A stretch of 35,598 nt of DNA from Planctomycetia bacterium (GTDB lineage: Bacteria; Planctomycetota; Phycisphaerae; Phycisphaerales; SM1A02). Location: positions 1 to 35,598 of the forward strand of contig SXUJ01000099.1 of assembly GCA_005790565.1 (NCBI GenBank), read 5' to 3'. The translations under genes were made by a program, and so were the position numbers. Every line of letters starts with the position of its first letter. The stretch's first letter is position 1. The notes below the pieces were generated by a model. That model was not told the DNA's origin and did not search any database. It was given only the letters and a program-made list of their open reading frames with translations. Shown in pieces: positions 1 to 18,668 of the stretch.

Positions 1-510
1 CACTGCATTCCCATCGATCCGTTTTACCTCACATGGAAAGCGAGAGAGACGGGCCACTCGACGCGGTTCATCGAACTCGCTGGTGAAATCAACACGGCAA
101 TGCCTGCGTATGTGATTGACCGCGTCGCCGAAGCACTCAACGATCAGTCGAAGCCCGTGAAGGGGAGTCGAGTGTTGGTGTTGGGGCTCGCGTACAAGGC
201 GGATATCGATGATGTGCGCGAGAGTCCATCGTTCGAACTCATTGAGTTGCTGCAACATCGTGGCGCACGAGTGGAGTACCACGACCCGCACTGTCCCGCG
301 ACTTGGGCGGGGCGACGACATGACTTGCGGATGACCAGCGTCGCACTCACCGCGGCGTCTATCGCTGACTTTGATTGTGTGCTGATCGCTACGGCGCACG
401 CCGCGGTCGATTACGCACTCGTCGCCGAGCACGCGAGGCTGGTGGTCGACACGCGCGATGCCATGCGCACGTACGAATCGCTTCTTGGTGCGCGGCTCGT
501 GCGCGCATGA
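1..510 (+). CDS. Nucleotide-sugar (UDP-sugar) 6-dehydrogenase, C-terminal part (5' truncated by window)
   Basis: The reading frame is open from base 1, so the N-terminal Rossmann domain lies outside the window. It begins with HCIPIDPFYLTWKARE, the catalytic-cysteine loop of UDP-glucose/GDP-mannose dehydrogenases, followed by the helix RFIELAGEIN. The C-terminal UDP-binding domain follows, with VLVLGLAYKADIDDVRESPS and a YHDPHCP strand. This HCIPIDPFYL form is typical of UDP-N-acetylhexosamine dehydrogenases (WbpA/TviB/WecC type), which oxidise C6 twice with NAD+ to give a UDP-N-acetyl-uronic acid in the cytoplasm. Substrate assignment within the family is inference. A GT4 gene starts 24 bp downstream on the same strand, so it heads or sits inside the polysaccharide locus. 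The product may feed the AsnB-type amidotransferase domain encoded further along. Confidence 0.9.
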   Translation, partial: HCIPIDPFYLTWKARETGHSTRFIELAGEINTAMPAYVIDRVAEALNDQSKPVKGSRVLVLGLAYKADIDDVRESPSFELIELLQHRGARVEYHDPHCPATWAGRRHDLRMTSVALTAASIADFDCVLIATAHAAVDYALVAEHARLVVDTRDAMRTYESLLGARLVRA

Positions 511-1710: not shown

Positions 1711-1838
1711 CACAAGGCCCGCCGACCTTTCCTCCAAACCGGAAGTATGTTGACGCAGTGGGGTTATGGCGACTCCTGACTTCTAGGCACGCCCGCTCCG
1801 AGCTTCATCCATTGTGTTTGATCGTCGATGATTGTTCC

Positions 1839-3836
1839 ATGCCGCGTTCGCTTCGCTCAATCGGTTCCCTCGTGACGATCGTCCAATTGGCGATCGCTCG
1901 CGGCGCGTTCGCAGTCGAGCCGCCGATCATGCGTGTATGGGAAACCGCGAGTGGTGGCAACGGTCACGCCTACGAGAGCCTCACGCTGGAGTCGCCGCAA
2001 TCGTTCGCGCAGGCACAAGTCACCGCAGAACGACGCGGCGCTCGACTTGTCCTGCCCAACTCACCAAGCGAACAGGCATTCGTCCGCACACTCTTGCTTG
2101 ATTCTGCACTTTCCTCGTCGTGGATCGATGGCTGGCGCGATCCGGATTGGAGGCCGGGCATCCTCGACTCCGCGAGTGTTCCTGCTGCTTGGCTTCGAGA
2201 GTGTGGAGTCGACAGAACACTCGACATCGTGTTGGTCGGTGATAGCAATGTGTTGTTTCGCACGACCGGATGGGATCACGGATTCCAGGCCGCGCTCGCG
2301 AGCCACAATTTCTTGTGTGCTGCCATTGGTCCCACCTCCTTCAATCATGACGGCGGCTCCGCGGGCTGGCGTTGGTCAAAATTCATCACACCCCACGGCG
2401 AGTGGCCGCCGGAGTTTGGAAACGCGGCGACTTCAACGCTTCACGCGCCCGCAGGACTTGCGCAACATCACGACTTCCCGAATGGCTTCCCAAACACGGG
2501 TGCCGGTTACACCTGGCTGTCGAGCGGAAGTGCGTCGGTGTTGGGCGGCGTTGACATTGCTGCAAACCATCCATTCATCGCAGACGCCGCGCCCATCGAG
2601 TTCCGGATTCGGCATGGACTTCTGCCTGGTGGCGGCAGTGTCTGCCCGACTGCCTGGCGAAACTACTCCTCCGAGCACATCTCCAACGGCTGCGTGCTGT
2701 GCGAGTCGCCTGTCACACAGATGGCAGAATCATCACTCTCGATTTCTGGCGCGTTTGGCAAGGGCTCGGGATTCCGGTTCACACTTGATAGCGGGTCCGG
2801 ACTTGTCGCGCCGGTCTTTCTTTCATGGGCTTCGGTTGAACGGACCGACGCGACACATGGTTGGGCGGTGAGCGTGCTCGATTGGCATAGCGGCGGAACC
2901 ACTCGCGATATCGCCGATGACATCGATAGTTTCGAAGGCACGACCGCGAGTGATTGGGTCACGCTCCTGCGTGCAAGACAGGCACGCCGCGGACAAGCCG
3001 CGCGAGTGCTCTTCGTTCTCTCTACGGGTATGAATGACACGCCACTCACCGTCGATGATCACGAAACTGCCCTCCGACGCATGATCACGAGCCTTGATGC
3101 GGCTTGGACTGCGGCCGGCGGATCAAGCACAGAGACAGCTTTTCTCATCAAGACATCTCATGATCCGCAACTGGGCGGCAGCAGTGCCCGTTTCGAAGCG
3201 CTCCGTGCTCGCGCGCGACTCGTCGCGGCTGAGCGAGACGACACCGCAAGCGTCGATCTTGGCAAGATCTTCATGCGACCGCTTTTCTTCCCGCACGACA
3301 ATGGTGGCGCTGCGCACCTCACGACACTTGGATACGAGCGCCTCTCCACATACATCGTGGACGCGGCACTCGGCGCGCAAGGATCGGGGTGTGGGTGGCA
3401 GTGGGGGGGCGGGGTCGAGCCATCCAAGATTCCGTGGGACGCTTCCTATCACGACGAGTGCGAGCCGGCGGGCGCGTCCATCGTGGTTACCCCCAAAGGC
3501 GCAGGCGTCTGGGTTGCACGTGCGGCGACGGAAGGACTTCGCTCGCTCGTCTTGGAGTACGACCGCGACTGCGACTTTGATGGCGTCATTGATCGGATTG
3601 CGATCGAACTTAGTCTCGTACTTGACGCCAACGGAGACAGGATTCCAGATATCTGCCAGTGCCTTGGTGATCTCAACTTCGACGGCACGGTCGACAGTGC
3701 AGATCTCGTCATGTTGCTCAGTGACTGGGACCTTGACTCGGCCGCCGACTTTGATGGCTCCAATCGCGTGGATGCCGCTGACCTTGTCACCCTCATTGGC
3801 GAGTGGGGGCCTTGTCTGCCCGCTCAAGGTCGCTAA
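1839..3836 (+). CDS. Secreted SGNH-hydrolase-like protein with C-type-lectin-like N-terminus and dockerin-like EF-hand tail
   Basis: The frame opens at 1758, but ATG 1839 gives a good signal peptide (MPRSLRSIGSLVTIVQLAIA.RGAFA), so that start is preferred (665 aa). Residues ~38-105 (GNGHAYESL, then SFAQAQ..A.RRGARLVL and SEQAFV) resemble the start of a C-type-lectin-like domain. An SGNH/GDSL-like core follows, with a GDS block at residues 134-136, GMND at 397-400 and a DxxxxxH block at 487-493 (DNGGAAH). The tail has DANGDRIPDICQC, a planctomycete-type calcium motif, then two dockerin-like EF-hands (DLNFDGTVDSADL and DFDGSNRVDAADL). It is probably exported and calcium-binding, and might deacylate or bind the polysaccharide. 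The hydrolase call rests on motifs only. The lectin resemblance is weak because the SGNH block interrupts it. Confidence 0.75.
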   Translation: MPRSLRSIGSLVTIVQLAIARGAFAVEPPIMRVWETASGGNGHAYESLTLESPQSFAQAQVTAERRGARLVLPNSPSEQAFVRTLLLDSALSSSWIDGWRDPDWRPGILDSASVPAAWLRECGVDRTLDIVLVGDSNVLFRTTGWDHGFQAALASHNFLCAAIGPTSFNHDGGSAGWRWSKFITPHGEWPPEFGNAATSTLHAPAGLAQHHDFPNGFPNTGAGYTWLSSGSASVLGGVDIAANHPFIADAAPIEFRIRHGLLPGGGSVCPTAWRNYSSEHISNGCVLCESPVTQMAESSLSISGAFGKGSGFRFTLDSGSGLVAPVFLSWASVERTDATHGWAVSVLDWHSGGTTRDIADDIDSFEGTTASDWVTLLRARQARRGQAARVLFVLSTGMNDTPLTVDDHETALRRMITSLDAAWTAAGGSSTETAFLIKTSHDPQLGGSSARFEALRARARLVAAERDDTASVDLGKIFMRPLFFPHDNGGAAHLTTLGYERLSTYIVDAALGAQGSGCGWQWGGGVEPSKIPWDASYHDECEPAGASIVVTPKGAGVWVARAATEGLRSLVLEYDRDCDFDGVIDRIAIELSLVLDANGDRIPDICQCLGDLNFDGTVDSADLVMLLSDWDLDSAADFDGSNRVDAADLVTLIGEWGPCLPAQGR

Positions 3837-3907: not shown

Positions 3908-5395
3908 ATGAAACGGTACCGAACTGCCTTACCGCAGCGTTGTTCTGTCGCACAATCGGATTCACCCTTGCAAAGCTCTCTGCCAGAACTCGGCCCCGTC
4001 GAAGTGCTGTTGATGCTCGTCGCGGTGCCAGTCGTCGTACTCCTCGCGCTGATGTCGCGAAGGAGCCTGCTCCTGATGTTGGGCGGCTTACTCTTCCTCG
4101 CGTCCATCGGCGTCGCCCGCGACTGGCGAGGCTCCATCTATGGCTCGTGGCTGCTCCCACTCCAGAACGCGCGCAATGTAGTGTTCGCAGGCCTGTCGGT
4201 GCTTCTCCTGCTCGGCGCGATGCCGATGATCGGAAACTCTCGCGTTGGACGCCCTCCGTTTGTCGCGTGGATCATCCTTGCGATCGGACTCTATCAAGGC
4301 TTCATGCGCATAACACATGAAGGTGCGGAAGCGGGCTTGATCTCCATGGCGTTCGCGATCGCGACGATCGTGCCCATTATGTTCATCCTCCCATCGCTCA
4401 TCCGCGACCGCGAGGACATTCGAGACTACTCATTCGTCGTCGGTGTCGGATTCTTGCTCTTCGTTGGCGCGTGCGTCATCCAAGCAGGGCTTGAACCCAG
4501 TCGCCTCACGATCGGGTTACAAGATCGATTCATCGGTGTTGCCGCGAATCCACAGCACGCGGGAACGATTGCAGCGGGCTGCATGATCTTCGCCGCGTGG
4601 CGCATTTGGGGAGAGCCGCTCGCGCGCGGAGTCCCGCTCTGGATCATCGTCTTCGGCGCGTGCGGAGTGGCCATCCTCCTCACAGGCTCACGAACTGCGA
4701 TCGCAATGGCGGGTGTCGGCATCCTCGTGCTCGCCTATCGTCGCGCGGGCCGATCGATCCTCATTCTGCCGATCGGCATCGCGCTCGCTTTCGCAGCGCT
4801 CAAGATCGCGGAAACGCTTGGTATCGATCTTCCTCTCGCACGCCTGACGGAAGGCGGCGATACGCGCTCGGTGGCATGGGCCGAACTCCTCGCAGACTTC
4901 AGATCCTCGCCAATCGCTGGAATCGGAATGGGTGAGCTCGAGATGAGCGAGAATAGTTTCCTCTTTGGAGCGGCATCGTTCGGGATTGGAATGCTCCTGC
5001 TCACGCTGCTCCTCGCCGTCGCGATCCTCGCGCAATGTGTCGCAATCTTCCGCGCAACGCTTCCCTACCGACGACTCCGTCCCTCTGCAGATCTCGTGAT
5101 CGGATTCAACCTCGCGTATCTCTTCGGAGCAAACTTCGAGGGGTACATCATGAGTCGAAACTCGGGGGCAATGATCCTCATCCTCATCTCAAGTTCGCTT
5201 GCGAGCGTGCTGCTCTCGGCAATTGCAAGCGCGGAGTCGAGTGGCGATCCCGATTTCGCCTTAGCGTGGGGGCTCGATGAGCTCGTCCTCTCGGACGAAG
5301 AGATTGCGGCGGAAGATGAAGAAGAAGGTGACTTCAACACCGATTCTGAGGACGCAGCGCCGATTGAGGGTGTGAAAAGCGCACACCAAGCCTAG
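3908..5395 (+). CDS. O-antigen ligase/polymerase family integral membrane protein (Wzy_C-like)
   Basis: A 495-aa polytopic inner-membrane protein with roughly ten or more hydrophobic segments. The signature LTGSRTA at residues 258-264, followed by a transmembrane helix and YRRAGR, is the core of the Wzy_C / O-antigen ligase family. Such proteins polymerise undecaprenyl-linked repeat units (Wzy) or ligate glycan to an acceptor (WaaL) on the periplasmic side. In this locus, with a flippase domain and no lipid-A genes, the polymerase role is the better guess. The C-terminus ends in an unusually acidic cytoplasmic-like tail (DEEIAAEDEEEGDFN). The first ~30 residues before the first membrane segment are polar, so the true start could be slightly downstream. 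The 71-bp gap from the upstream gene allows cotranscription. Confidence 0.8.
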   Translation: MKRYRTALPQRCSVAQSDSPLQSSLPELGPVEVLLMLVAVPVVVLLALMSRRSLLLMLGGLLFLASIGVARDWRGSIYGSWLLPLQNARNVVFAGLSVLLLLGAMPMIGNSRVGRPPFVAWIILAIGLYQGFMRITHEGAEAGLISMAFAIATIVPIMFILPSLIRDREDIRDYSFVVGVGFLLFVGACVIQAGLEPSRLTIGLQDRFIGVAANPQHAGTIAAGCMIFAAWRIWGEPLARGVPLWIIVFGACGVAILLTGSRTAIAMAGVGILVLAYRRAGRSILILPIGIALAFAALKIAETLGIDLPLARLTEGGDTRSVAWAELLADFRSSPIAGIGMGELEMSENSFLFGAASFGIGMLLLTLLLAVAILAQCVAIFRATLPYRRLRPSADLVIGFNLAYLFGANFEGYIMSRNSGAMILILISSSLASVLLSAIASAESSGDPDFALAWGLDELVLSDEEIAAEDEEEGDFNTDSEDAAPIEGVKSAHQA

Positions 5396-7139: not shown

Positions 7140-8183
7140 TCAGCCTTGACCTTGATTGACTGAGACATCGTGCCCAGCAGCGCGAAGAGTCTGCTCGCGC
7201 TTGGCGAGCTCCAAGTCGTGCTCGACCATCATGCGCGCAAGCTCTTCCACCGAAGTCTTCGGAACCCACCCAAGTTTCGTCCGAGCCTTGGTCATGTCGC
7301 CAAGCAACTGCTCCACTTCCGCAGGTCGGAAGTAACGCGGATCAACTTCGACAAACTCTTGGTAATCGAGACCGAGCTGTCGAAACGAAAGCTCGCAAAA
7401 TTCGCGTACGGAAATCATCTTGCCTGTGGAGATGACGAAATCATCGGGCTCGTTCTGCTGCAACATGAGCCACATCGCCTCGACATAGTCTCCGGCATAT
7501 CCCCAGTCGCGAAGCGCGTCGAGATTGCCAAGGAAGAGCTTCTTCTGCAAGCCCAGCTTGATGCGGCAAGCCGCGCGCGTGATCTTGCGCGTAACGAAAG
7601 TCTCTCCGCGGCGCGGGCTTTCGTGATTGAACAGAATCCCGCATGAAGCATGCATGCCGTAACTCTCGCGATAGTTGACCGTGATCCAGTGCGCGTACAA
7701 CTTGGCGCATCCATACGGGGATCGCGGCCAGAACGGCGTCGTCTCCCTCTGTGGAACTTCCTGTACCTTGCCAAACATCTCGCTCGAAGACGCTTGATAA
7801 AAGCGCACGCGTTTGCCAGACCAATCTTGGTAGATGCGCACCGCGTCAAGCAACTTGAGAACCCCAGTGGCGACAACATCCGTAGTGAACACGGGCTGAT
7901 CAAACGAAACACGCACATGACTCTGCGCGGCGAGGTTGTAAACCTCGTCCGGTTTCACTTCTTGGACGATCCGCCCCAGCCCGTTCGCGTCCGCAAGGTC
8001 GCCATAGTGAAGGCGTAATCGCGATGCCTCGTGCGGATCGCGATAGACATGATCGATGCGCTCAGTGTTGAAACTCGACGACCGGCGAATGATCCCGTGC
8101 ACTTCGTACCCCTTGGAAAGGAGAAGTTCAGTGAGGTAACTGCCGTCTTGACCAGTGATGCCGGTGATGAGCGCGCGCTTCAT
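7140..8183 (-). CDS. gmd: GDP-mannose 4,6-dehydratase
   Basis: A 347-aa short-chain dehydrogenase/reductase of the extended type, full length for Gmd. It converts GDP-D-mannose to GDP-4-keto-6-deoxy-D-mannose in the cytoplasm, the first committed step to GDP-L-fucose. The NADP-binding motif is [10 protein letters not shown] at residues 8-17. The specificity loop [15 protein letters not shown] follows. The catalytic residues are in SSSEMFG (~132-138) and Y157-x3-K161 ([12 protein letters not shown]). [16 protein letters not shown] is the characteristic Gmd substrate loop. It lies 131 bp downstream of the AsnB-flippase fusion on the same strand and is probably transcribed with it. Its partner, the GDP-fucose synthase, is at 13233-14234 on the opposite strand, so the two fucose-pathway genes are split between divergent units. 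Confidence 0.96.
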
Positions 8184-8314: not shown

Positions 8315-11300
8315 TCACTCTCCGAGGGGATTCGCCAAACGCTTGCGCATTTCTTGCACTAATCCAAAGATGTGAAGGTGCGTCGCGGCACTCACCCAGC
8401 GCAGCACCACGACATAGACCACGAGGCCCAGTGCACCCGCCGCGATTTGTGCGACAAGCGAGAGCGACGTGGTGTTGCCGAGCCAATACAAGAGCGTCGC
8501 CTGCGGGAGGAAGGCGATGACGCTCGCCGCAATCGGTGCGGCATACGAAGAAAGAATGGTCCGCACGGTTCCAGAACGGAGCTGCAACGACAACGCGATC
8601 GCGGCAGGGCCGGCAATCATCGAGACGAGGAATACGCCAAAGGCGACATGTCGAGCGACGCCAAGCCATGCGCCAAGGAAGACCGCGACGGTGAGGCACG
8701 CCGTCTGCGCGATTTGAAAACGAAGGAGCGGCTTGAACCGGCCCGACGCGCGCATGTAAGCCGCCGCGATTTGCACAGGGCTTAGCGCAAGAAACGCAAT
8801 GCTCAGAATCGACAACGAGATCCAGGCGAGGCCCCAGCGCTCCGGGAGGAGGACATGAATGATCGCGGGACTTGCGATCGCGAGACTGATGCATAGTGGA
8901 GCCGTCACAGCGAGCGTCAGTCTGACTGTGGTGACGTATGTCAATCGCATCCGCTCGGGATCGTGTTGCAGCCTCGCCAAGATCGGCTGCGCAATTCCCG
9001 CCACGGTGTAGGAGAGAAGCATATTGATGGCGCTCGCCAGTTGATAGGCAATCGTGTAACGACCGAGGACATCGTCGGGATGAAAGACAGACAATGCGAA
9101 GTAATCGATGGTCTGTGTCACACCGTTGAGGTAGTGTTGGACTCCTCCGGCCCAAAAATCCCCCATCGCGCTTCGGATGCGTGCAGGTATACCTGGGCGA
9201 TTCAAACTGATGCCCGCCGCCGTGGTTGTTGCGATGCAACGCGACAGGGCAAAGATGAGCATCGGCGCCATCAATGCCCAGCCACCGAACCCAAGGAGTC
9301 CGAAGACCCCCGTCAGCACGACGGTCAGAATGGACCCGATCGTATCGATCGTCGCAAGGAACTTGAAGCGAAGGTTGAGGCGCAGTTTCGCGCTGGCGAC
9401 GCTCGTAAATCCATCCAGCAGGATTCGGATCGCCATCGCAATCACAAGGATCGCGATGTTCGGGTCGCCGTACTTTGCGTGAATCAGTGGGAACGCGCCA
9501 AGGCAGAGTCCAACAATGAGGACGCCAGCGATCATGGCAAGCCAAAGACACGCCGACTCCCACAGGTTCCGATGCCGCTGATGTCGCACCAACAGGTCAC
9601 CAGCCGCGCCGGGGAACATGAAGCTCAACAGCGTTCCGATAGAGATGGCGGTGGTGACCGCGCCAACATCCGCAGGGGTGAGTGTCCATGCGGCAATGAG
9701 ATAGGTGAGGACTCCGCTTGCCTTCTGCACACCCGCTTGCACTAACCCCCAGAACGCGCCGCCCGCAAACTGCGTTCGTGTGTCAACAGTCGCAGACTCT
9801 CCGCCTGACTGCATCGTCGCCGTCGATTCAGGGTTCGCGCGCTCCTCGCGTCGATCAAGCACTGCTTCAACATCTCGCCCAGCGTCATCCACCGACACAA
9901 GCGTTGCTGCCACGTTGCTCAGTTCGCGCTGGACCTCGCTCCTGCCCCATCGCTCTAGCCATGTCTCGAACATGAGGCAGTTCCACAGTTCCCACTGCGA
10001 GCGAACTCGACCAGTTTGGTGGTCATTCCAGAGTGAGTGGACGGATTCGGCATCAAGGAACCCTTCGCTCTCAAGTCGCGCCCGATCGAGATAGTGTGCC
10101 CCCCAATCTCTCAATTCATCACGCAACCAATCACCAATCGGCACACTGAAGCCCATCTTGGGGCGATCCACGAGTTCGCGCGGCACATGCCGATCGAGCA
10201 AGTCGCGTAACAGCACTTTGTTGCTTCCGTCGCGAAACTTGAAGCAAGCGGGAATCCGCAGCGCCAATTCGATGAGTCGATGATCAGTGAGCGGCTCTCT
10301 CGCTTCAAGGCTATTCGCCATGCTCACGCGATCCATCTTTGCGAGAATCTCGTCTGGCATGTAGCTCGCCATATCGCACACCGAGGCTCGCGTGATCGCG
10401 CACCCGACGCGCGCACGCCGCGTCCGATCAGTCATTGAGCAAAGTGGCTCGTGAGGATCCACGAGGTAGAGGTGCGGGCGCTTCACCACGGAGGCAAGTT
10501 GTGAATAGACCTCACCTGAATAGCGGAGGCTCAGAATCGACGAGAGTTTGAGCAGGCGGTCACGGGGGAGACTGTTGAAGTGCCCGGGGATGAAGCGCCC
10601 GAGCGGATTGATCGCCACAGCTGGCAAGATGCCCGCGATACCAGCCGCGGCACTCATGCCAACACGCAGTGGATAAGGCCAGCGCTGGAGAATCCCCTCG
10701 AGCCGCTCAGTAAACGGATATCGATCGTATCCACCAAAGAGTTCGTCCCCACCATCACCACAGAGCGCAACCGTGATGTCGCGTCGAGCCAACTGACAAA
10801 CGATGTAGGAAGGGATCGCGGAGCTGTCGGCGAATGGCTCGTCGTAGATATCTGACAACTTGGGAATCAGATCTAGTGATTCGCGCGCGCCGACATAAAG
10901 TTCAGTGTGATTCGTCCCGAGATGCTCGGCGATCTTCCGCGCGTGCGGAGCCTCGTCGTAGATCGCTTCGCGGAAGCCGATCGTGTAGGTTCGGAGTGGT
11001 TGTGGCGAGAGCTTCGCTGCAATCGCTGTCACGAGCGATGAGTCAATACCTCCGGAGAGAAATGTGCCCAGCGGAACATCTGCGATCATGCGCAATCGAA
11101 TCGACTCCGTCAGTTGCGCTTCAACTCGTTCGATCGCCTCTTGATAATCAAGAATCTGCTCCTCTGCCGCCTGTTCGGCGGCACGCGCTGCGCTCCAGTA
11201 TTCGACCAATTCCGCTCGCGCCGTCGCTGGATCGATCACTGCGATGTGACCTGGCTCCAACTTCTGAAACCCCTCAAAGATGCAGTGCGGAGAGGGGACA

Positions 11301-11884
11301 TACGAGAAACGCATGAAGAGCGCGACGGCCCCGCGGTCCACGGGTGGGCACCGCAGCGGGAGAGCCCGAATCGCCTTGAGCTCGCTCCCGAACACAATCG
11401 TTCGGTTCCCTGGGCCCATGTGACCCCAAAAGAGCGGCTTCACTCCGACTCGATCCCGTGCGAGGAACAATCGTCGAAGCGATGCGTCCCAAACCGCAAA
11501 TGCAAACATCCCGACGAACTTTGGAATCGACTCGCGCACGCCCCACTGTTCAAACGCCGCGAGCATCACTTCTGTGTCGGAGCCGCCGCGAAACTGGTGC
11601 CCGAGCCGTGTCAACTCGTCGCGCAGAATCTTGAAGTTGTAGACCTCGCCATTGAACGCGATCGTGAATCGACCACTCGACGACCGCATCGGTTGATGCC
11701 CATCGGCACTGCAGTCTTGAATCGAGAGCCGCCGGAACCCGAACCCAACGCGATGCTCCCGATCAAACCAAGTTCCCTCGTCGTCAGGGCCGCGAAGCCG
11801 AATGGCGTCGGACATGCGACGGAGGATTTGCTCCGGCTCTCGAAAAAGCCCGTCACGGTCAATGAATCCAGCGATACCACACAT
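8315..11884 (-). CDS. asnB: In-frame fusion: AsnB-type glutamine amidotransferase + Wzx-like polysaccharide flippase
   Basis: One uninterrupted 1189-codon frame. Residues 1-~640 form a complete class-II glutamine-dependent asparagine synthetase-like protein: nucleophile Cys2 (MCGIAGF), NGEVYN at 78-83, SGGIDSS PP-loop at 277-283 and GDGGDELFGGY at 376-386. An acidic/polar linker (~640-695) follows. Residues ~696-1189 form a hydrophobic MOP-superfamily protein with about 12-14 membrane segments, starting FAGGAFWGLVQAG, with QTIDYFALSVF and LGRYTIAYQLA as in Wzx-type O-unit flippases. Each half is full length. AsnB-type proteins in polysaccharide loci amidate uronic acids, and Wzx moves lipid-linked units across the inner membrane. 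An internal ATG at 9814 (residue 691) could give a separate flippase. The fusion is real at DNA level as given; a lost stop from sequencing error cannot be excluded. Confidence 0.88.
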   Translation of the reverse strand: MCGIAGFIDRDGLFREPEQILRRMSDAIRLRGPDDEGTWFDREHRVGFGFRRLSIQDCSADGHQPMRSSSGRFTIAFNGEVYNFKILRDELTRLGHQFRGGSDTEVMLAAFEQWGVRESIPKFVGMFAFAVWDASLRRLFLARDRVGVKPLFWGHMGPGNRTIVFGSELKAIRALPLRCPPVDRGAVALFMRFSYVPSPHCIFEGFQKLEPGHIAVIDPATARAELVEYWSAARAAEQAAEEQILDYQEAIERVEAQLTESIRLRMIADVPLGTFLSGGIDSSLVTAIAAKLSPQPLRTYTIGFREAIYDEAPHARKIAEHLGTNHTELYVGARESLDLIPKLSDIYDEPFADSSAIPSYIVCQLARRDITVALCGDGGDELFGGYDRYPFTERLEGILQRWPYPLRVGMSAAAGIAGILPAVAINPLGRFIPGHFNSLPRDRLLKLSSILSLRYSGEVYSQLASVVKRPHLYLVDPHEPLCSMTDRTRRARVGCAITRASVCDMASYMPDEILAKMDRVSMANSLEAREPLTDHRLIELALRIPACFKFRDGSNKVLLRDLLDRHVPRELVDRPKMGFSVPIGDWLRDELRDWGAHYLDRARLESEGFLDAESVHSLWNDHQTGRVRSQWELWNCLMFETWLERWGRSEVQRELSNVAATLVSVDDAGRDVEAVLDRREERANPESTATMQSGGESATVDTRTQFAGGAFWGLVQAGVQKASGVLTYLIAAWTLTPADVGAVTTAISIGTLLSFMFPGAAGDLLVRHQRHRNLWESACLWLAMIAGVLIVGLCLGAFPLIHAKYGDPNIAILVIAMAIRILLDGFTSVASAKLRLNLRFKFLATIDTIGSILTVVLTGVFGLLGFGGWALMAPMLIFALSRCIATTTAAGISLNRPGIPARIRSAMGDFWAGGVQHYLNGVTQTIDYFALSVFHPDDVLGRYTIAYQLASAINMLLSYTVAGIAQPILARLQHDPERMRLTYVTTVRLTLAVTAPLCISLAIASPAIIHVLLPERWGLAWISLSILSIAFLALSPVQIAAAYMRASGRFKPLLRFQIAQTACLTVAVFLGAWLGVARHVAFGVFLVSMIAGPAAIALSLQLRSGTVRTILSSYAAPIAASVIAFLPQATLLYWLGNTTSLSLVAQIAAGALGLVVYVVVLRWVSAATHLHIFGLVQEMRKRLANPLGE

Positions 11885-11948: not shown

Positions 11949-13181
11949 ATGAAGATCGTCCATTTCATCGACCATCTCGACCTCCGACGTGGAGGTCCCG
12001 CCGGCGCCGTCGTCGCATTGGCAAACGCCATGGCCGAGCGGTCCCATCAGGTCATCGTCACAACCACTACCGCACGCGACACCCCTGCATCGTGGGGGCC
12101 TGGAGGCGCGCAACCGGCATGCATCGCGCTCCCAACACTGCGTGCACGCATGCTTTCTCCACCGGCCATCGCCCAACTTCGCGAACTGATGCGCGGGGCA
12201 GATGTGGTCCACCTGCATGGAGTTTGGGAACCTTCCAATGCGCAGGTTGCCCGCCTCGCACGACGAATGCGGATTCCGTACTTCGTGAGTCTCCGAGGAA
12301 TGCTCGACGATTGGTCGATGGATCAGCGCTGGCTGAAGAAGCGCATCTATTGGCTCCTTTCCGGCAGGCGATACCTCGCGCGGGCTGCGGTGGTGCACTG
12401 CACCGCGCGACTCGAACTTCGTCAGTCGAAGAAATGGTTCCCGCAACGACTCGGGCGTGTGCTTTACAACCTGATGGATCTGCGTCAGTTTCACTCAATG
12501 CCAGGTCGGGAACTCGCCTGTAAGAAGTGGCCTGTTCTCTCGACCGATCGACCGAAGTTGCTCTTTCTCAGCCGACTTTCGAGCAAGAAAGGGCTTGAGC
12601 ACCTCATCTCCGCAGCCGCCATTCTTACCAAGCAGGCGGCCGCGAGTGCTTCGGCCGCGCCTATTGTGATGATCGCGGGAACGGGCGACGACGCCTATGC
12701 CAACGAATGCCGCGATCTTGCGGCGGAGTTGGGGATTGCATCGTCCGTCCACTTCGTTGGCCATGTTGGGGGCGCGGAGAAGATTTCGCTCCTGCAGGCG
12801 TGCGACCTCTTTGTCCTTCCCACAAGCCAAGAAAACTTTGGGTTTGTCTTTTTCGAGGCACTCGCGTCCGGCCTGCCGGTTGTGACGACCAACCTCATCG
12901 ATACCGCTGGCGAGATCGAAGCGAGCGGCGGCGGATTCATTGTTCCCCAGTCCGCCGAGTCCATCGCTGCCGCATGCACGAACGCTCTCGCGGAACGGGC
13001 TGCGTTAGAGGCCAAGGGACGCGCGGGGAGGGCTTGGACTTTCGAAAACCTCGATTCCAACACCATTGCTGCCGCCTTTGAGTCGCTCTACCGAGAGTAC
13101 TCCTTAGAAGGTGTCAGTTTCCGAGATTGCGTCCTCGCGAAGGCGGGTGCAAGTGATGTTTGCGCGTCAAGCGACCGATAG
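11949..13181 (+). CDS. Glycosyltransferase family 4 (paralogue of the GT4 at 535-1710)
   Basis: A 410-aa GT-B glycosyltransferase. The N-terminal domain opens MKIVHFIDHLDLRRGGPAGAV. VVHLHGVWEPSN, RGMLDDWSMDQ and CTARLELRQSKKWFP follow. The C-terminal donor domain starts at KLLFLSRLSSKKGLEHLI. The E-x7-E motif is ENFGFVFFE at residues 295-303. Relative to the GT4 near the left end, the shared motifs and spacing indicate gene duplication within the locus. It is first in a plus-strand series (GT4, GDP-fucose synthase, GT4, formyltransferase, deacetylase) with short gaps or overlaps, so it is probably the first gene of that operon. Its donor sugar is unknown; GDP-fucose is possible from the neighbour but unproven. 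The C-terminal ~25 residues after REYSLEG look non-conserved. Confidence 0.9.
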   Translation: MKIVHFIDHLDLRRGGPAGAVVALANAMAERSHQVIVTTTTARDTPASWGPGGAQPACIALPTLRARMLSPPAIAQLRELMRGADVVHLHGVWEPSNAQVARLARRMRIPYFVSLRGMLDDWSMDQRWLKKRIYWLLSGRRYLARAAVVHCTARLELRQSKKWFPQRLGRVLYNLMDLRQFHSMPGRELACKKWPVLSTDRPKLLFLSRLSSKKGLEHLISAAAILTKQAAASASAAPIVMIAGTGDDAYANECRDLAAELGIASSVHFVGHVGGAEKISLLQACDLFVLPTSQENFGFVFFEALASGLPVVTTNLIDTAGEIEASGGGFIVPQSAESIAAACTNALAERAALEAKGRAGRAWTFENLDSNTIAAAFESLYREYSLEGVSFRDCVLAKAGASDVCASSDR

Positions 13182-13232: not shown

Positions 13233-14234
13233 GTGCCCACAGATCTGTCCAACGCAAAGATTGTCGTCACCGGTGGCGCCGGCTTCCTTGGTCGGGCGCT
13301 CCTTGCGGAACTTGCCACACGAGGATGCGCGCAGGTGTTCGTCCCACGCCGTCGCGAGTATGACCTCACGCGCGAGGCGGATGTTGCGCGACTCTACAAG
13401 GATCGTTCGCCAGACATCGTCTTACACCTCGCGGCAGAAGTGGGAGGCATCGGCGCGAATCAAGCAAACCCCGGTCGATACTTCTTCGCCAACATGGCGA
13501 TGGCGTTGCATCTCATTGAATACGCACGCCTGCACAACCTGAAGAAGTTCGTGCAAGTCGGAACGATTTGCGCTTATCCCAAGTACACGCCTGTTCCATT
13601 TCGAGAAGAAGAGTTGTGGAATGGGTATCCGGAAGAAACCAACGCACCCTATGGCGTCGCAAAAAAGGCCGCCATGGTGATGCTCGACGGCTACCGCCGT
13701 CAATACGGACTTGCATCGTCCTACCTTCTTCCCGTCAACCTGTACGGACCGTGGGATAACTTTGATGTGCAAACCTCCCATGTCATTCCCGCGCTCATTC
13801 GCAAGTGCGTGGAAGCGCAGGAAGCATCCCGTCCATTCATCGAATGCTGGGGCGATGGAAGCGCGAGCCGTGAGTTCCTGTTCGTGGAGGATGCGGCGCG
13901 CGGCGTCGTGCGTGCTGCGGAAGTGATGAATGAACCTGTGCCCATCAATCTTGGCACCTGTATGGAAATCACAATCAAGCAGCTCGTCGAATTGATCGCG
14001 CAGCTCTGCGACTACACCGGCGAAATCCGCTGGGATCCATCGAAGCCAAATGGACAACCTCGGCGCTGTCTTGACACTAGTCGCGCCGCAGAGTTGCTCG
14101 GCTGGCGTGCGCGCGTTCCCTTTGAAGAAGGACTGCGGCAGACCATTGCTTGGTATCGCGCGAATCGGTCCTATCGGGCATCGCATGATCCATCACTCGC
14201 TGCCCCGCCGACTCCCGCCGGCACATCGAAGTAG
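13233..14234 (+). CDS. fcl: GDP-L-fucose synthase (GDP-4-keto-6-deoxymannose epimerase/reductase)
   Basis: A 333-aa extended SDR protein starting with GTG at 13233. It epimerises C3/C5 and reduces C4 of GDP-4-keto-6-deoxymannose with NADPH to yield GDP-L-fucose. The cofactor motif is GGAGFLG at residues 14-20. The catalytic Tyr-Lys pair is Y140-x3-K144 in NAPYGVAKKA, and AAEVGGIGANQANPG is the family's typical loop. The serine-loop position reads GTICAYPK, so Thr111 stands where E. coli-type enzymes have Ser, while the conserved Cys113 is kept. LPVNLYGPWDNFD and SHVIPALIRKC are diagnostic. It acts after Gmd, whose gene is 5 kb away on the other strand. The next GT4 starts 5 bp after its stop, which suggests cotranscription. 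A short Asp/Ser/Pro-rich tail is extra. Confidence 0.92.
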   Translation: MPTDLSNAKIVVTGGAGFLGRALLAELATRGCAQVFVPRRREYDLTREADVARLYKDRSPDIVLHLAAEVGGIGANQANPGRYFFANMAMALHLIEYARLHNLKKFVQVGTICAYPKYTPVPFREEELWNGYPEETNAPYGVAKKAAMVMLDGYRRQYGLASSYLLPVNLYGPWDNFDVQTSHVIPALIRKCVEAQEASRPFIECWGDGSASREFLFVEDAARGVVRAAEVMNEPVPINLGTCMEITIKQLVELIAQLCDYTGEIRWDPSKPNGQPRRCLDTSRAAELLGWRARVPFEEGLRQTIAWYRANRSYRASHDPSLAAPPTPAGTSK

Positions 14235-14239
14235 GGTCT

Positions 14240-15499
14240 ATGCGCGTACTCATCCTCAACCAGTGTTTTTATCCCGATGTTGTTGCGACCGCGCAGCATG
14301 GATGGGATTTGGCGCGACACCTCCGCAGCAAGGGGCATGAAGTCACCGCGATTGCGTCGCGATCCATTTATGGCGCGAAGGGTGCGACACTCGCTCGGAA
14401 CGAAACCGTCGATGGCGTGCGCATCGTGCGAGTGGGGGCAAGCATCTTCGGGAAGTCCTCGATTGTGGCGCGCATCTTTGATTTCGCGTTCTTTTATGTC
14501 CTCGCGGTCTGGACCGCCATCACGCTTCCCAAGCACGATGTCTGTGTTTGCTTCACCACGCCACCCTTCATTGCCGTCGTCGGTTGGATTCTCCGCCTCA
14601 CGCGGGGTACGCGATATGTCTATTGGGTGATGGATCTCTATCCAGATCTTCCCGTGGCTTGCGGTGTCATGCGCGAGCGATCACTCGCCACTCGCTTCTT
14701 CGAGCGCCTCAATCGATTCTGTTTGCGCCGGGCGAACCGCGTGGTGGTGCTCGGGCGGTGTATGGAGCAGCGCGTGCTCGACAAGGGCGTGAGTGCCTCG
14801 AACATCGTTCGCATCAATGTCTGGAGCGATCAAGAGGAGATTCGTCCTGTTACTCCTGAGGCGAATCAATTCCGCAGAGAATGGGGTGTTGGCTCTCGAT
14901 TGCTCGTCATGTACTCGGGCAACTTTGGCATCGGACACGATGTCGAAACGATCGCGGATGGCGTGATTCGACTCCGCGATAACCCGCGCATTCTCTTCGC
15001 GTTCGTGGGCGGGGGAAAACGAAAAAGTGAACTCATCAGTCTGCTCGCAGCAGCAGGGGTCTCGAACTTCATCGAAGGGCCGTATCAACCGCGCGAACGG
15101 CTCGATGAGCTTCTCAGCGCAGCGGATGTCCATATCGCGAGTCTCAAGAATGGCGTCGAAGGAATCATGGTGCCGAGCAAGCTCTATGGCGTCCTCGCCG
15201 CAAGCCGACCAATCATCTTTATCGGTGCGCGCACTGGTGAAGTCGCGCGCGTCATTGAGGAGGAGCGTTGCGGTGTCGTCATTGCCTGTGGTGACGGAAG
15301 CGCGTTTGCCTCGGCAGTCACGAACTTTGCAGCCGACCGAGCGGAGACAGAACGAAGCGGTGCACGCGGCCGTGCCGCGCTCACCAGCACCTGGGGCGCG
15401 TCCCACGCGCTCGCCAAGTGGACAACACTGCTCGAGAGCGTCAGTACGGACCAGCAAGGCGCAGCCCGCACCTCGTCCTCGCAACCCAACTCTAGGTGA
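14240..15499 (+). CDS. Glycosyltransferase family 4, WbuB/WcaI-like
   Basis: A 419-aa GT-B enzyme of the WbuB/WcaI-type subfamily, known for transferring fucose or N-acetyl-fucosamine-type sugars in O-antigen and colanic acid loci. It starts MRVLILNQCFYPD.VATAQH. CFTTPPFIAVVG and YWVMDLYPDLPVA are the subfamily's signature. The donor domain starts at LLVMYSGNFGIGHD, and GIMVPSKLYGVLAASRPIIFIG forms the nucleotide-binding end. It begins 5 bp after the GDP-fucose synthase stop codon, so use of GDP-L-fucose is an attractive inference. The last ~25 residues (Ser/Gln/Arg-rich) look like an unstructured tail and run into the next gene's possible GTG start. Confidence 0.9.
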   Translation: MRVLILNQCFYPDVVATAQHGWDLARHLRSKGHEVTAIASRSIYGAKGATLARNETVDGVRIVRVGASIFGKSSIVARIFDFAFFYVLAVWTAITLPKHDVCVCFTTPPFIAVVGWILRLTRGTRYVYWVMDLYPDLPVACGVMRERSLATRFFERLNRFCLRRANRVVVLGRCMEQRVLDKGVSASNIVRINVWSDQEEIRPVTPEANQFRREWGVGSRLLVMYSGNFGIGHDVETIADGVIRLRDNPRILFAFVGGGKRKSELISLLAAAGVSNFIEGPYQPRERLDELLSAADVHIASLKNGVEGIMVPSKLYGVLAASRPIIFIGARTGEVARVIEEERCGVVIACGDGSAFASAVTNFAADRAETERSGARGRAALTSTWGASHALAKWTTLLESVSTDQQGAARTSSSQPNSR

Positions 15500-15528
15500 C
15501 TCGGATAAGTGAGAGAAGGCAGCACCCG

Positions 15529-16326
15529 ATGAGCTCAATCCCAGCCCCCAATCAAGCGCCCGCGCCACTGCGTGTTCTCCTTGTGACGGAGAATGACCCG
15601 CTCTATGTGCGGCAGTTCTTCGATGTGTTCTTCGCCGAAGTTCCTCGTGACCAAATCGAACTTGTTGGCGTAACAGTTTCCCGCGCCTTCCATGAACCGC
15701 TGAAGAAGACCGCGCAGCGCGTGCTTCGCTTCTATGGACTCTTTGACTTCGCCCGCCTGCTTCCTCGGTACCTCTTCGCGAAGTTGACCGGCCAGTCCAT
15801 CTCGAAACTCGCGGTCAAGCATGGGTTCCCACTCTTGCAAGCCGCAAGCGTGAATTCGCAGGAGTACATCGACGCTGTAACCGCGTTGCGTCCTGAGATG
15901 ATTGTCTCGGTCGCAGCCCCCGAGATTTTCAAGTCGCCGCTACTGCGCGTCGCGACCATCGGCTGTCTCAACATTCACTCGGGCCGCATCCCCGAGTACC
16001 GAGGCATGATGCCGACTTTCTGGCAGATGTTGGAAGAACAACCCTTCGTCACTGTGACCGTGCACGAGATGGTGGAGAAACTCGACTCGGGCGGCATTGT
16101 GGACACGCTTCAGTTTCCATTGCATAAACGAGATTCACTCGATCGCGTGATCTCTGGGACAAAGCAGCAGGGCGCGCGACTCATGATCCGCGTACTCCGG
16201 AAAATCGCTTCGACCCGCTCTATGCCCGCTGCAACACCGCTTGACATGTCAAAGGCGCGGCTCTTCAAGTTCCCCCAACCCACCGATGTGCAGAAGTTTC
16301 GCGCGGTTGGCCACCGGATGATCTGA
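15529..16326 (+). CDS. Formyltransferase-family protein (sugar N-formyltransferase-like)
   Basis: The product belongs to the methionyl-tRNA formyltransferase / sugar N-formyltransferase fold, which uses N10-formyl-tetrahydrofolate. The catalytic triad is visible: Asn148 and His150 in NIHSGRIPEYRG, and Asp186 in EKLDSGGIVD (numbering from the ATG at 15529). The frame also offers a GTG at 15496 overlapping the previous stop (GTGA). I prefer ATG 15529 because GAGAGAAGG lies about 9 nt upstream, giving 265 aa. The N-terminal half (RVLLVTENDPLYVRQFFDVF) differs from true tRNA formyltransferases, and no tRNA-binding C-terminal domain is present. That and the context point to a polysaccharide sugar amine as acceptor. 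Its stop overlaps the deacetylase start (TGATG), suggesting translational coupling. Confidence 0.85.
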   Translation: MSSIPAPNQAPAPLRVLLVTENDPLYVRQFFDVFFAEVPRDQIELVGVTVSRAFHEPLKKTAQRVLRFYGLFDFARLLPRYLFAKLTGQSISKLAVKHGFPLLQAASVNSQEYIDAVTALRPEMIVSVAAPEIFKSPLLRVATIGCLNIHSGRIPEYRGMMPTFWQMLEEQPFVTVTVHEMVEKLDSGGIVDTLQFPLHKRDSLDRVISGTKQQGARLMIRVLRKIASTRSMPAATPLDMSKARLFKFPQPTDVQKFRAVGHRMI

Positions 16327-17198
16327 TGTCACGCGTCCCGCACCGCCCGCTCCACGCGCTCTCCTTCGATATCGAGGATTGGTTTCACATCGTGGACATT
16401 CCTGGTCTTGACGACCCAACGAAATGGCCTGCCATGGAGACGCTCGTCGAACGCAGGACGGACGACATCCTCGCCGCGCTTGATCGACACGGCACACGCG
16501 CATCGTTCTTCGTGCTGGGGTGGATCGCGGAGCGCTATCCCGCACTCGTGCGCCGAATTCATAACGCGGGTCACGAACTCGGCTCTCACTCCTTCTGGCA
16601 CCGCCGCATATTCACGCTCGATCGAGAGGAGTTTCGCCGCGATACCAAGCTCTCGCTCGATGCGATCGAGTCGGCATGCGGGGTTCGTCCGGTCGGATAC
16701 CGCGCGCCAAGTTTCTCGATTCTCCAAGGGACCGAGTGGGCGCTCGATGTCCTACTCGACTGCGGAATCCGCTGGGATGCGAGTCTTTTTCCAACCCAGC
16801 GCGGTCATGGCGGCTATCCGTGCGCCGACGCGCCGCACATGTTCACTGCGCTTCCATCGGGTCGATCGATGCCCGAACTTCCGCTTGGCGTAATGAGAAT
16901 TGCGGGTCGCGGATTGTGCTTCTCTGGCGGCGGCTACATGCGGCTCCTGCCGCTCTGGTTCATTGAACGAGGCTTTGCACAATTCGTGTCGCGTGATCTT
17001 CCGGTTGTGATCTACCTTCATCCTCGCGACTTTGCGCCAGAATGCCCGCGCGTGCCCATGCCGTTCTCGCGCAAGTTCAAGTGCTATGTCGGGATGCACA
17101 CAACGATGCCAAAACTCGAAGCACTCTTGGCTCGACACTCTTTCGCGCCCTGCGGAGATGTGCTGCGCGAGCGAGGATTACTTGGCGTGAGTGCTTGA
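16326..17198 (+). CDS. Polysaccharide deacetylase, XrtA/DUF3473-associated type
   Basis: A 290-aa NodB-fold deacetylase without signal peptide, so likely cytoplasmic. Motif 1 is the family variant LSFDIEDWFH (Asp15, Glu17, Asp18). The metal-binding HxxxH is H88-SFW-H92 within GHELGSHSFWHRR. Motif 3 is YRAPSFSI (125-132). The C-terminal DUF3473 region shows LCFSGGGYMRLLP and VVIYLHPRDFAPECPR. This subfamily is common in exopolysaccharide loci of the PEP-CTERM/exosortase type and is expected to remove N-acetyl groups from aminosugar residues. The start ATG overlaps the formyltransferase stop by one base. A deacetylase translationally coupled to a formyltransferase suggests exchange of N-acetyl for N-formyl. 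Its 3' end overlaps the convergent GT2 gene by 21 bp. Confidence 0.92.
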   Translation: MSRVPHRPLHALSFDIEDWFHIVDIPGLDDPTKWPAMETLVERRTDDILAALDRHGTRASFFVLGWIAERYPALVRRIHNAGHELGSHSFWHRRIFTLDREEFRRDTKLSLDAIESACGVRPVGYRAPSFSILQGTEWALDVLLDCGIRWDASLFPTQRGHGGYPCADAPHMFTALPSGRSMPELPLGVMRIAGRGLCFSGGGYMRLLPLWFIERGFAQFVSRDLPVVIYLHPRDFAPECPRVPMPFSRKFKCYVGMHTTMPKLEALLARHSFAPCGDVLRERGLLGVSA

Positions 17199-18110: not shown

Positions 18111-18668
18111 GTGGACATCGAAGACCTCGTTACTGAACGCTCAACGAGCCCCTACACCTTCAAAGAGAAGGTTGGGCGCATTCTCTGGGGCGTGGTGCAA
18201 GCCACGGTCTTCCGTTGCACCTTTCACAACTGGTACAGCATTCGGCGGGCCATGCTCTCCTGCTTTGGCGCGAAGCTGCACTCGACAGTGCGCATCCGTC
18301 GCACGGTTCTCATTGAGTGCCCGTGGAACCTCCGAATGGGCGCCGACAGTTCGATCGGGGACCGAGCAATCATCTACTGCCTCGGGCCGGTCACGATTGG
18401 CGATCGGACCACGCTCTCGCAAGGCGCACACATCTGTGCTGGAAGCCATGATTACCGCAAGCGCGCGATGCCGTTGCTCCGACCACCCATCGACATTGGC
18501 AGTGATGTCTGGATTGCGGCGGATGCCTTCGTCGGTCCCAAAGTACGGATCGGGGATGGCGCAATCCTTGGCGCACGCTCTGCGGCGCTCACGCCGCTCC
18601 AAGAATGGACGATCTACTCTGGCAACCCCGCGCAACCTATAAAAGCTCGCGGCATCATCGAAGCGTAA
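18111..18668 (+). CDS. WcaF-like hexapeptide-repeat O-acetyltransferase
   Basis: A 185-aa left-handed beta-helix acyltransferase starting with GTG. The N-terminal region (FKEKVGRILWGVVQATVFR) and the FGAKL turn match the WcaF/colanic-acid acetyltransferase group. Hexapeptide repeats run from ~residue 58 to 165 (IGDRAIIYCLG, VTIGDRTTLSQGAHIC, IDIGSDVWIAADAFVGPKVRIGDGA). The catalytic His is His113 in CAGSHDYRK. It would transfer acetyl from acetyl-CoA to a sugar hydroxyl of the polysaccharide precursor in the cytoplasm. Together with gmd, the fucose synthase and a WcaI-like GT this gives a colanic-acid-like gene complement. It is the last polysaccharide gene in the window; cysS follows 19 bp later on the same strand and may be read through. 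Confidence 0.9.
   Translation: MDIEDLVTERSTSPYTFKEKVGRILWGVVQATVFRCTFHNWYSIRRAMLSCFGAKLHSTVRIRRTVLIECPWNLRMGADSSIGDRAIIYCLGPVTIGDRTTLSQGAHICAGSHDYRKRAMPLLRPPIDIGSDVWIAADAFVGPKVRIGDGAILGARSAALTPLQEWTIYSGNPAQPIKARGIIEA

Follow-up and report, generated by a model that had tools for sequence, protein, structure and literature searches.

We analysed a 35,598-nucleotide stretch (the window) of contig SXUJ01000099.1 from the Planctomycetia bacterium assembly GCA_005790565.1 (Phycisphaerae; Phycisphaerales; SM1A02), which, judged by its gene content, is an exopolysaccharide locus with several glycosyltransferases. On its minus strand, a single uninterrupted open reading frame (11884..8315; ATG at 11884, stop at 8317-8315; 1189 codons, no internal stop) joins an AsnB-type amidotransferase to a Wzx-type flippase. 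Third-position G+C content is alike on either side of the junction between the two.

Both halves align with their own families along most of their length, and above Pfam cut-offs. The AsnB half carries GATase_7 at residues 51-173 (E 1.6e-40, 138.4 bits vs a cut-off of 25) and Asn_synthase at residues 254-644 (E 1.3e-106, 357.7 bits vs 21), and the flippase half carries Polysacc_synt_3 (PF13440) at residues 735-1017 (E 1.1e-34, 120.5 bits vs 23) and Polysacc_synt (PF01943) at residues 709-973 (E 1.2e-11, 45 bits vs 28.2). Cys2, SGGIDSS and GDGGDE, the marks of an AsnB-type amidotransferase, are all present. Across the seven fused proteins that were aligned (all those found except that of genome G078), Cys2, N78-G79-E80, D103, S277..G279..D281-S282 and GDGGDE (377-381) are invariant in 7/7, with L028 reading SSGVDS at the SGGxDS motif; the first D of GDGGDE sits where E. 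coli AsnB has E (GEGSDE). Sequence alignments to PDB entries span both AsnB domains (E. coli AsnB, 1ct9; asparagine synthetase, 6gq3; hydroxyamidotransferase, 7ylz), Cys2 falling inside the alignment to 7ylz only, while the flippase half gave no match among PDB sequences up to E 1. A crude hydropathy count places 14 membrane segments in the window protein and 12-14 across the seven fused proteins. The gene is confirmed as a true fusion of two complete domains. This is what a first-pass annotation made from the letters alone had proposed, namely two complete halves in frame with no stop between them; its full-length flippase of about 495 residues holds as a domain and shortens to 486 aa, and its acidic linker of about 55 residues is borne out at ~57 residues, with 12 D/E and 7 K/R over the 65 aa that reach to the first membrane-helix anchor.

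The fusion is more than a chance occurrence, because it recurs in three genera. Searching the family's 181 genomes turned it up in eight (our labels are G for genomes, g for genera and L for loci): three of four in the window's genus g1 (G000, G001, G002), two of 16 in g28 (G073, G078) and three of three in g32 (G096-G098). Seven of the eight genes are intact single frames, full-length within the genus at 87% (G002) and 75% (G001) identity, and the fused proteins persist across the three genera down to about 45% identity. The eighth, in G078, has a frame break inside its flippase half, which could be a sequencing error or a decayed gene. Four relatives are Planctomycetota metagenome-assembled genome records; L024 and L025 share a sample name and the others differ.

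Wider sampling did not extend this range. All eight genomes with the fusion in an order sample (400 genomes) belong to this family, and the class (397) and phylum (392) samples, which overlap it and each other, held the fusion in G000 and G097 only; scoring was limited to the best two regions of each genome in these samples and to the best three in the family search. Among plasmid records, 548 matched the query and none covered 80% of it in one place. Among frames of at least 700 codons across 146 loci, both halves occur together solely in loci of the eight known genomes; the remaining AsnB frames of this size extend at most 47 residues beyond the AsnB match and owe their length to open stretches before it. 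Loss of a stop codon between adjacent genes, which the first-pass annotation had named as the alternative, or a frameshift or assembly error in one genome, is ruled out by the recurrence and is extremely improbable: the same single frame stands in seven genomes of three genera, so that close relatives do not all encode two separate proteins, and nothing speaks for such an accident but the broken copy of G078, whose break is not at the junction.

The linker is little conserved. Eight linkers, taken from the AsnB end to the first membrane helix, measure 57-100 residues and differ in length and sequence; the expectation that relatives would share the fusion held, and that they would share the same linker did not. 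None of the eight contains an in-frame stop. Base shuffles leave a single linker stop-free by chance in 3-47% of cases; the observation carries weight because all eight count together, though they are related to each other. Within g1, three pairwise ratios of nonsynonymous to synonymous change (dN/dS, NG86) were 0.27, 0.38 and 0.19 for the linker, rough values given 54-57 linker codons and dS near saturation, against 0.05-0.07 for the AsnB half and 0.05-0.16 for the flippase half. By this measure the linker evolves like coding sequence within the genus, which indicates that it is translated.

These changes, which favour synonymous sites, speak against the view that the product is cut or internally started and that AsnB and flippase act as separate proteins, a view we regard as decidedly improbable. 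In its favour, in-frame start codons lie within seven of the eight linkers. No start has a conserved place, however: G078 has none, G002 a lone GTG, and G096 one ATG right where its linker begins. The ATG at 9814 (residue 691), from which separate flippase translation had been suggested, does exist in frame, but it has no counterpart at the same place in six aligned relatives and was rejected as an internal start.

Unfused relatives keep the two genes close together. In G118 (genus g34), AsnB and flippase are separate; the AsnB gene stops about ten residues beyond a conserved RW, and the flippase begins, in a different frame, at an ATG placed so that the two genes overlap by 8 nt. G011, G019 and G012 carry a more distant AsnB-type gene whose end overlaps the following flippase by 4 nt (with TTG as the flippase start in G012); in G060 such a gene lies 5 nt upstream of the flippase, all four distances being measured from the nearest plausible starts. 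Overall, AsnB lies immediately upstream on the same strand in 5 of 22 unfused flippase loci (L063-L084; flanks of about 1.5 kb, frames of at least 350 codons). A related locus in G017 and G018 (L130, G017:C24; L131, G018:C233) has the flippase together with GT4, Wzy-like, hyp5542 and gmd homologues, and no AsnB match within 10-11 kb. Three states therefore exist, flippase alone, coupled pair and fusion, and the flippase-only locus provides a natural control for what amidation does.

G118 and g32 form a group in the flippase tree (100/99), apart from g1 and g28, and they do likewise in the AsnB trees (100/100 in the reduced tree, 97/75 in the larger one). A single clade of all eight fused proteins was rejected (p-AU 0.0008 for flippase, 0.0002 for AsnB) in a test run after the trees had been seen, on a group defined by being fused. 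The fewest changes number two in flippase and AsnB trees alike, which would mean either that fusion took place twice or that it took place once and was undone by fission in G118; these data do not reveal the direction. Fission would be favoured by the reduced AsnB tree, where G118 nests weakly inside g32 (81/23); the neat overlap in G118, with no remnant of a linker, would favour a pre-fusion state. The AsnB-less G017 and G018 fall with G118 and g32 in the flippase tree at weak support (87/46). Linker homology between clades did not rise above shuffles for g1-g32 (lowest fraction 0.076, nine pairs), g28-g32 (0.031, six pairs) or g1-g28 (0.091, six pairs); since the last two genera share a clade and still fail, the linker comparison cannot tell one fusion from two.

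It is quite possible that the fusion serves mere co-expression, overlapping coupled genes having been made one frame by a small indel that fixed stoichiometry and membrane placement, with no mechanism of its own and with amidation at the stage of the uridine diphosphate (UDP)-sugar. The 8-nt overlap in G118 and the 4-nt overlaps in three other loci fit this course, as do the fast, little conserved linkers, and WbpS, a family of AsnB-type enzymes from other polysaccharide loci, is proposed in one account to act on the nucleotide sugar, that is on UDP-sugars (PMC6025236). Persistence across three genera to about 45% identity, and on two branches in both trees, suggests on the other hand some benefit.

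The neighbouring genes are those of a glycan locus (Table 1).

Table 1. Features of the window and of the fusion gene, with supporting matches.
Feature	Position	Strand	Remarks
Nucleotide sugar dehydrogenase, C-terminal part, cut by window edge	1..510	+	TIGR03026 132.8 bits, below whole-protein cut-off 189.8
Wzy/O-antigen-ligase-like membrane protein (weak)	3908..5395	+	PF04932 E 6e-4, 20.1 bits, below cut-off 31.7
GDP-mannose 4,6-dehydratase, downstream of fusion	7140..8183	-	TIGR01472 542 bits, above cut-off 415
AsnB-Wzx fusion gene	8315..11884	-	1189 codons plus stop
MOP/Wzx-type flippase half	8318..9775 (residues 704-1189)	-	Polysacc_synt_3 at 8834-9682
Linker	9776..9946 (residues 647-703)	-	variable, without conserved internal start
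In-frame ATG, proposed internal start	9812..9814 (residue 691)	-	place not conserved in relatives
AsnB-type amidotransferase half	9947..11884 (residues 1-646)	-	Pfam, NCBIfam and PDB sequence alignments
Divergent GT4 glycosyltransferase	11949..13181	+	homologue adjoins fused loci in related genera
GDP-L-fucose-synthase-like	13233..14234	+	278.9 bits, below equivalog cut-off 500
WcaI-like glycosyltransferase	14240..15499	+	173.3 bits, below cut-off 276
Formyltransferase-fold protein, possibly sugar-modifying	15496..16326	+	PF00551 above cut-off
XrtA-type polysaccharide deacetylase-like	16326..17198	+	TIGR03006 246.6 bits, below cut-off 276.2
WcaF-like acetyltransferase	18111..18668	+	173.2 bits, below cut-off 192

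In each of the three genera, fused loci (G002, G073, G096-G098) have a homologue of the GT4 gene as their divergent neighbour; a homologue likewise lies upstream of the split pair in G118 and beside the flippase of G017 and G018. The uronic-acid-forming class of nucleotide sugar dehydrogenase shares a locus with the fusion in the window and in G073; a full-length homologue of the truncated dehydrogenase in L025 scores 403.6 bits with TIGR03026 (cut-off 189.8), its nearest specific models being ManNAc dehydrogenase and TviB, both below cut-off. Elsewhere in the window's genome there are two further PF13440 matches, as well as additional AsnB-type genes, of which the closest, at 49%, stands unfused. 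Exosortase (PF09721), expected in genomes that hold an XrtA/PEP-CTERM system amidotransferase of the TIGR03108 kind, was found in eight of nine genomes searched, the window's included, and not in G118 (81% complete). The window protein at 1758-3836 ends in a short C-terminal tail of Asp-rich repeats common to proteins in L119, L120 and L121, those of L119 and L121 matching it in the tail only; tails of this kind near fused and split loci are presumably dockerin-like. A different MOP flippase in L126 (G079:C121:1500-7983, minus strand) continues in one 1005-codon frame into 486 further residues whose sequence, judged by eye, resembles a GT4 glycosyltransferase. In a comparison with L127 and L128 (G086, G082), the flippase and the GT4-like gene of G086 were separate neighbours. 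The L126 frame, found in a single genome, may represent another kind of fusion between a flippase and an enzyme.

We consider that the fused protein probably serves a Wzx/Wzy exopolysaccharide locus in two roles, as an enzyme that forms a uronamide and as a transporter that flips the lipid-linked unit. Its N-terminal half would work in the cytoplasm as an amidotransferase, using glutamine and ATP to convert a uronic acid's carboxyl group to a carboxamide. The flexible linker would hold this half against the cytoplasmic side of the C-terminal flippase, and the flippase in turn would carry repeat units linked to undecaprenyl diphosphate across the inner membrane. Produced as one chain, the protein would have a fixed 1:1 ratio of its halves and would set amidation beside the export gate. 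We infer this coupling of a uronate-to-uronamide reaction to flipping from the nearest NCBIfam model, eps_aminotran_1 (TIGR03108), and from Porphyromonas gingivalis WbpS: one report places this enzyme in the same model, describes its gene as adjoining wzx and finds a uronamide abolished by its deletion (PMC7468200).

Several observations weigh against this bifunctional reading. Among NCBIfam models TIGR03108 scores highest on the AsnB half, yet its 562 bits fall short of the cut-off of 816.9, and the generic asparagine synthase model TIGR01536 was reached (473.5 bits, cut-off 267.1), which means that the sequence does not fix the acceptor. No dehydrogenase matched in the stretches fetched from g32 and G118, where the C-terminal fragment was the sole query and the rest of the genomes was not searched. 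The fusion is lacking in 14 of 16 g28 genomes and in G003 of the window's own genus, which has neither fusion nor flippase match at 1e-15; the copy in G078 is broken inside the flippase half (L026 7995-11416; G078:C174:20402-23811); and the flippase of G017 and G018 has no AsnB match within 10-11 kb. An AlphaFold run on four sequences yielded an unusable model (mean pLDDT 37.4).

The tethered enzyme might go further and hand its product to a gate, the flippase taking amidated units only and unamidated ones staying inside. Such an export checkpoint is a plausible, testable option and not a result, and we hold it to be rather unlikely. A precedent is the MOP flippase TacF, which one account describes as retaining teichoic acid that lacks its modification (PMC13385700). 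An AsnB-type gene also adjoins a flippase gene in five unfused loci and in P. gingivalis (PMC7468200), and the trees permit two independent fusions. Against it, the length and variability of the linker are not in themselves a sign that substrate is handed over, and P. gingivalis WbpS, called nonessential for the linking sugar, indicates that export there needs no amidation (PMC7468200). The step at which WbpS acts is left unsettled in that source. Amidation had been pictured as the last cytoplasmic step. This picture is opposed by the proposed action of WbpS on UDP-sugars, which counts against the checkpoint too, and by the wbpS mutant of H. pullorum, in which chain extension stops, so that amidation would precede further extension (PMC6025236).

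A still bolder version, in which lipid-linked uronic acid is edited at the mouth of its own flippase, only edited units pass, and this self-contained quality control arose twice from translationally coupled pairs, is in our view unlikely. Two origins from coupled pairs, if true, would be a sign that the physical link itself had been selected for. To our knowledge, whether glycan modifications are checked at export is an open question for most Wzx flippases. The interest of the family lies in the coexistence of natural fused, coupled and flippase-only versions, which offer a ready-made comparison of whether amidation gates flipping.

Among known systems, TacF, the pneumococcal teichoic acid gatekeeper, is of the same kind in being a MOP flippase said to test a modification before transport; it differs in that the modification is phosphocholine, with no amidotransferase attached to the flippase in the account given (PMC13385700). 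The WbpS family (P. gingivalis PGN_1234, P. aeruginosa WbpS, E. coli O121 WbqG) has the same class II glutaminase and Asn_synthase domain encoded inside a polysaccharide locus, but is described as separate genes, whereas the window protein carries an attached flippase. With the Wzx/PST MOP flippases the protein shares a full-length polysaccharide flippase domain and a Wzx/Wzy-like gene cluster, and it differs from them by a 650-residue catalytic domain and a linker at its N terminus. Its scores also stay below the equivalog cut-offs of the nearest flippase models, NF007773 (94.6 vs 273 bits) and TuaB (NF047674, 70.4 vs 580), and of Oglyco_Wzx (59.9 vs 720). The halves are thus of known kinds; for the joined architecture, of which the first-pass annotation likewise knew no described protein, no description was found in targeted searches of the open-access literature, most subscription papers being outside this scope, and it is apparently undescribed. 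Mycobacterial MurJ/MviN is a MOP flippase with an extra pseudokinase domain that has a role in control. There the added domain is regulatory, whereas that of the window protein is predicted to be a catalytic, substrate-modifying enzyme, and the fusion would accordingly extend the range of flippases carrying added domains by a catalytic one.

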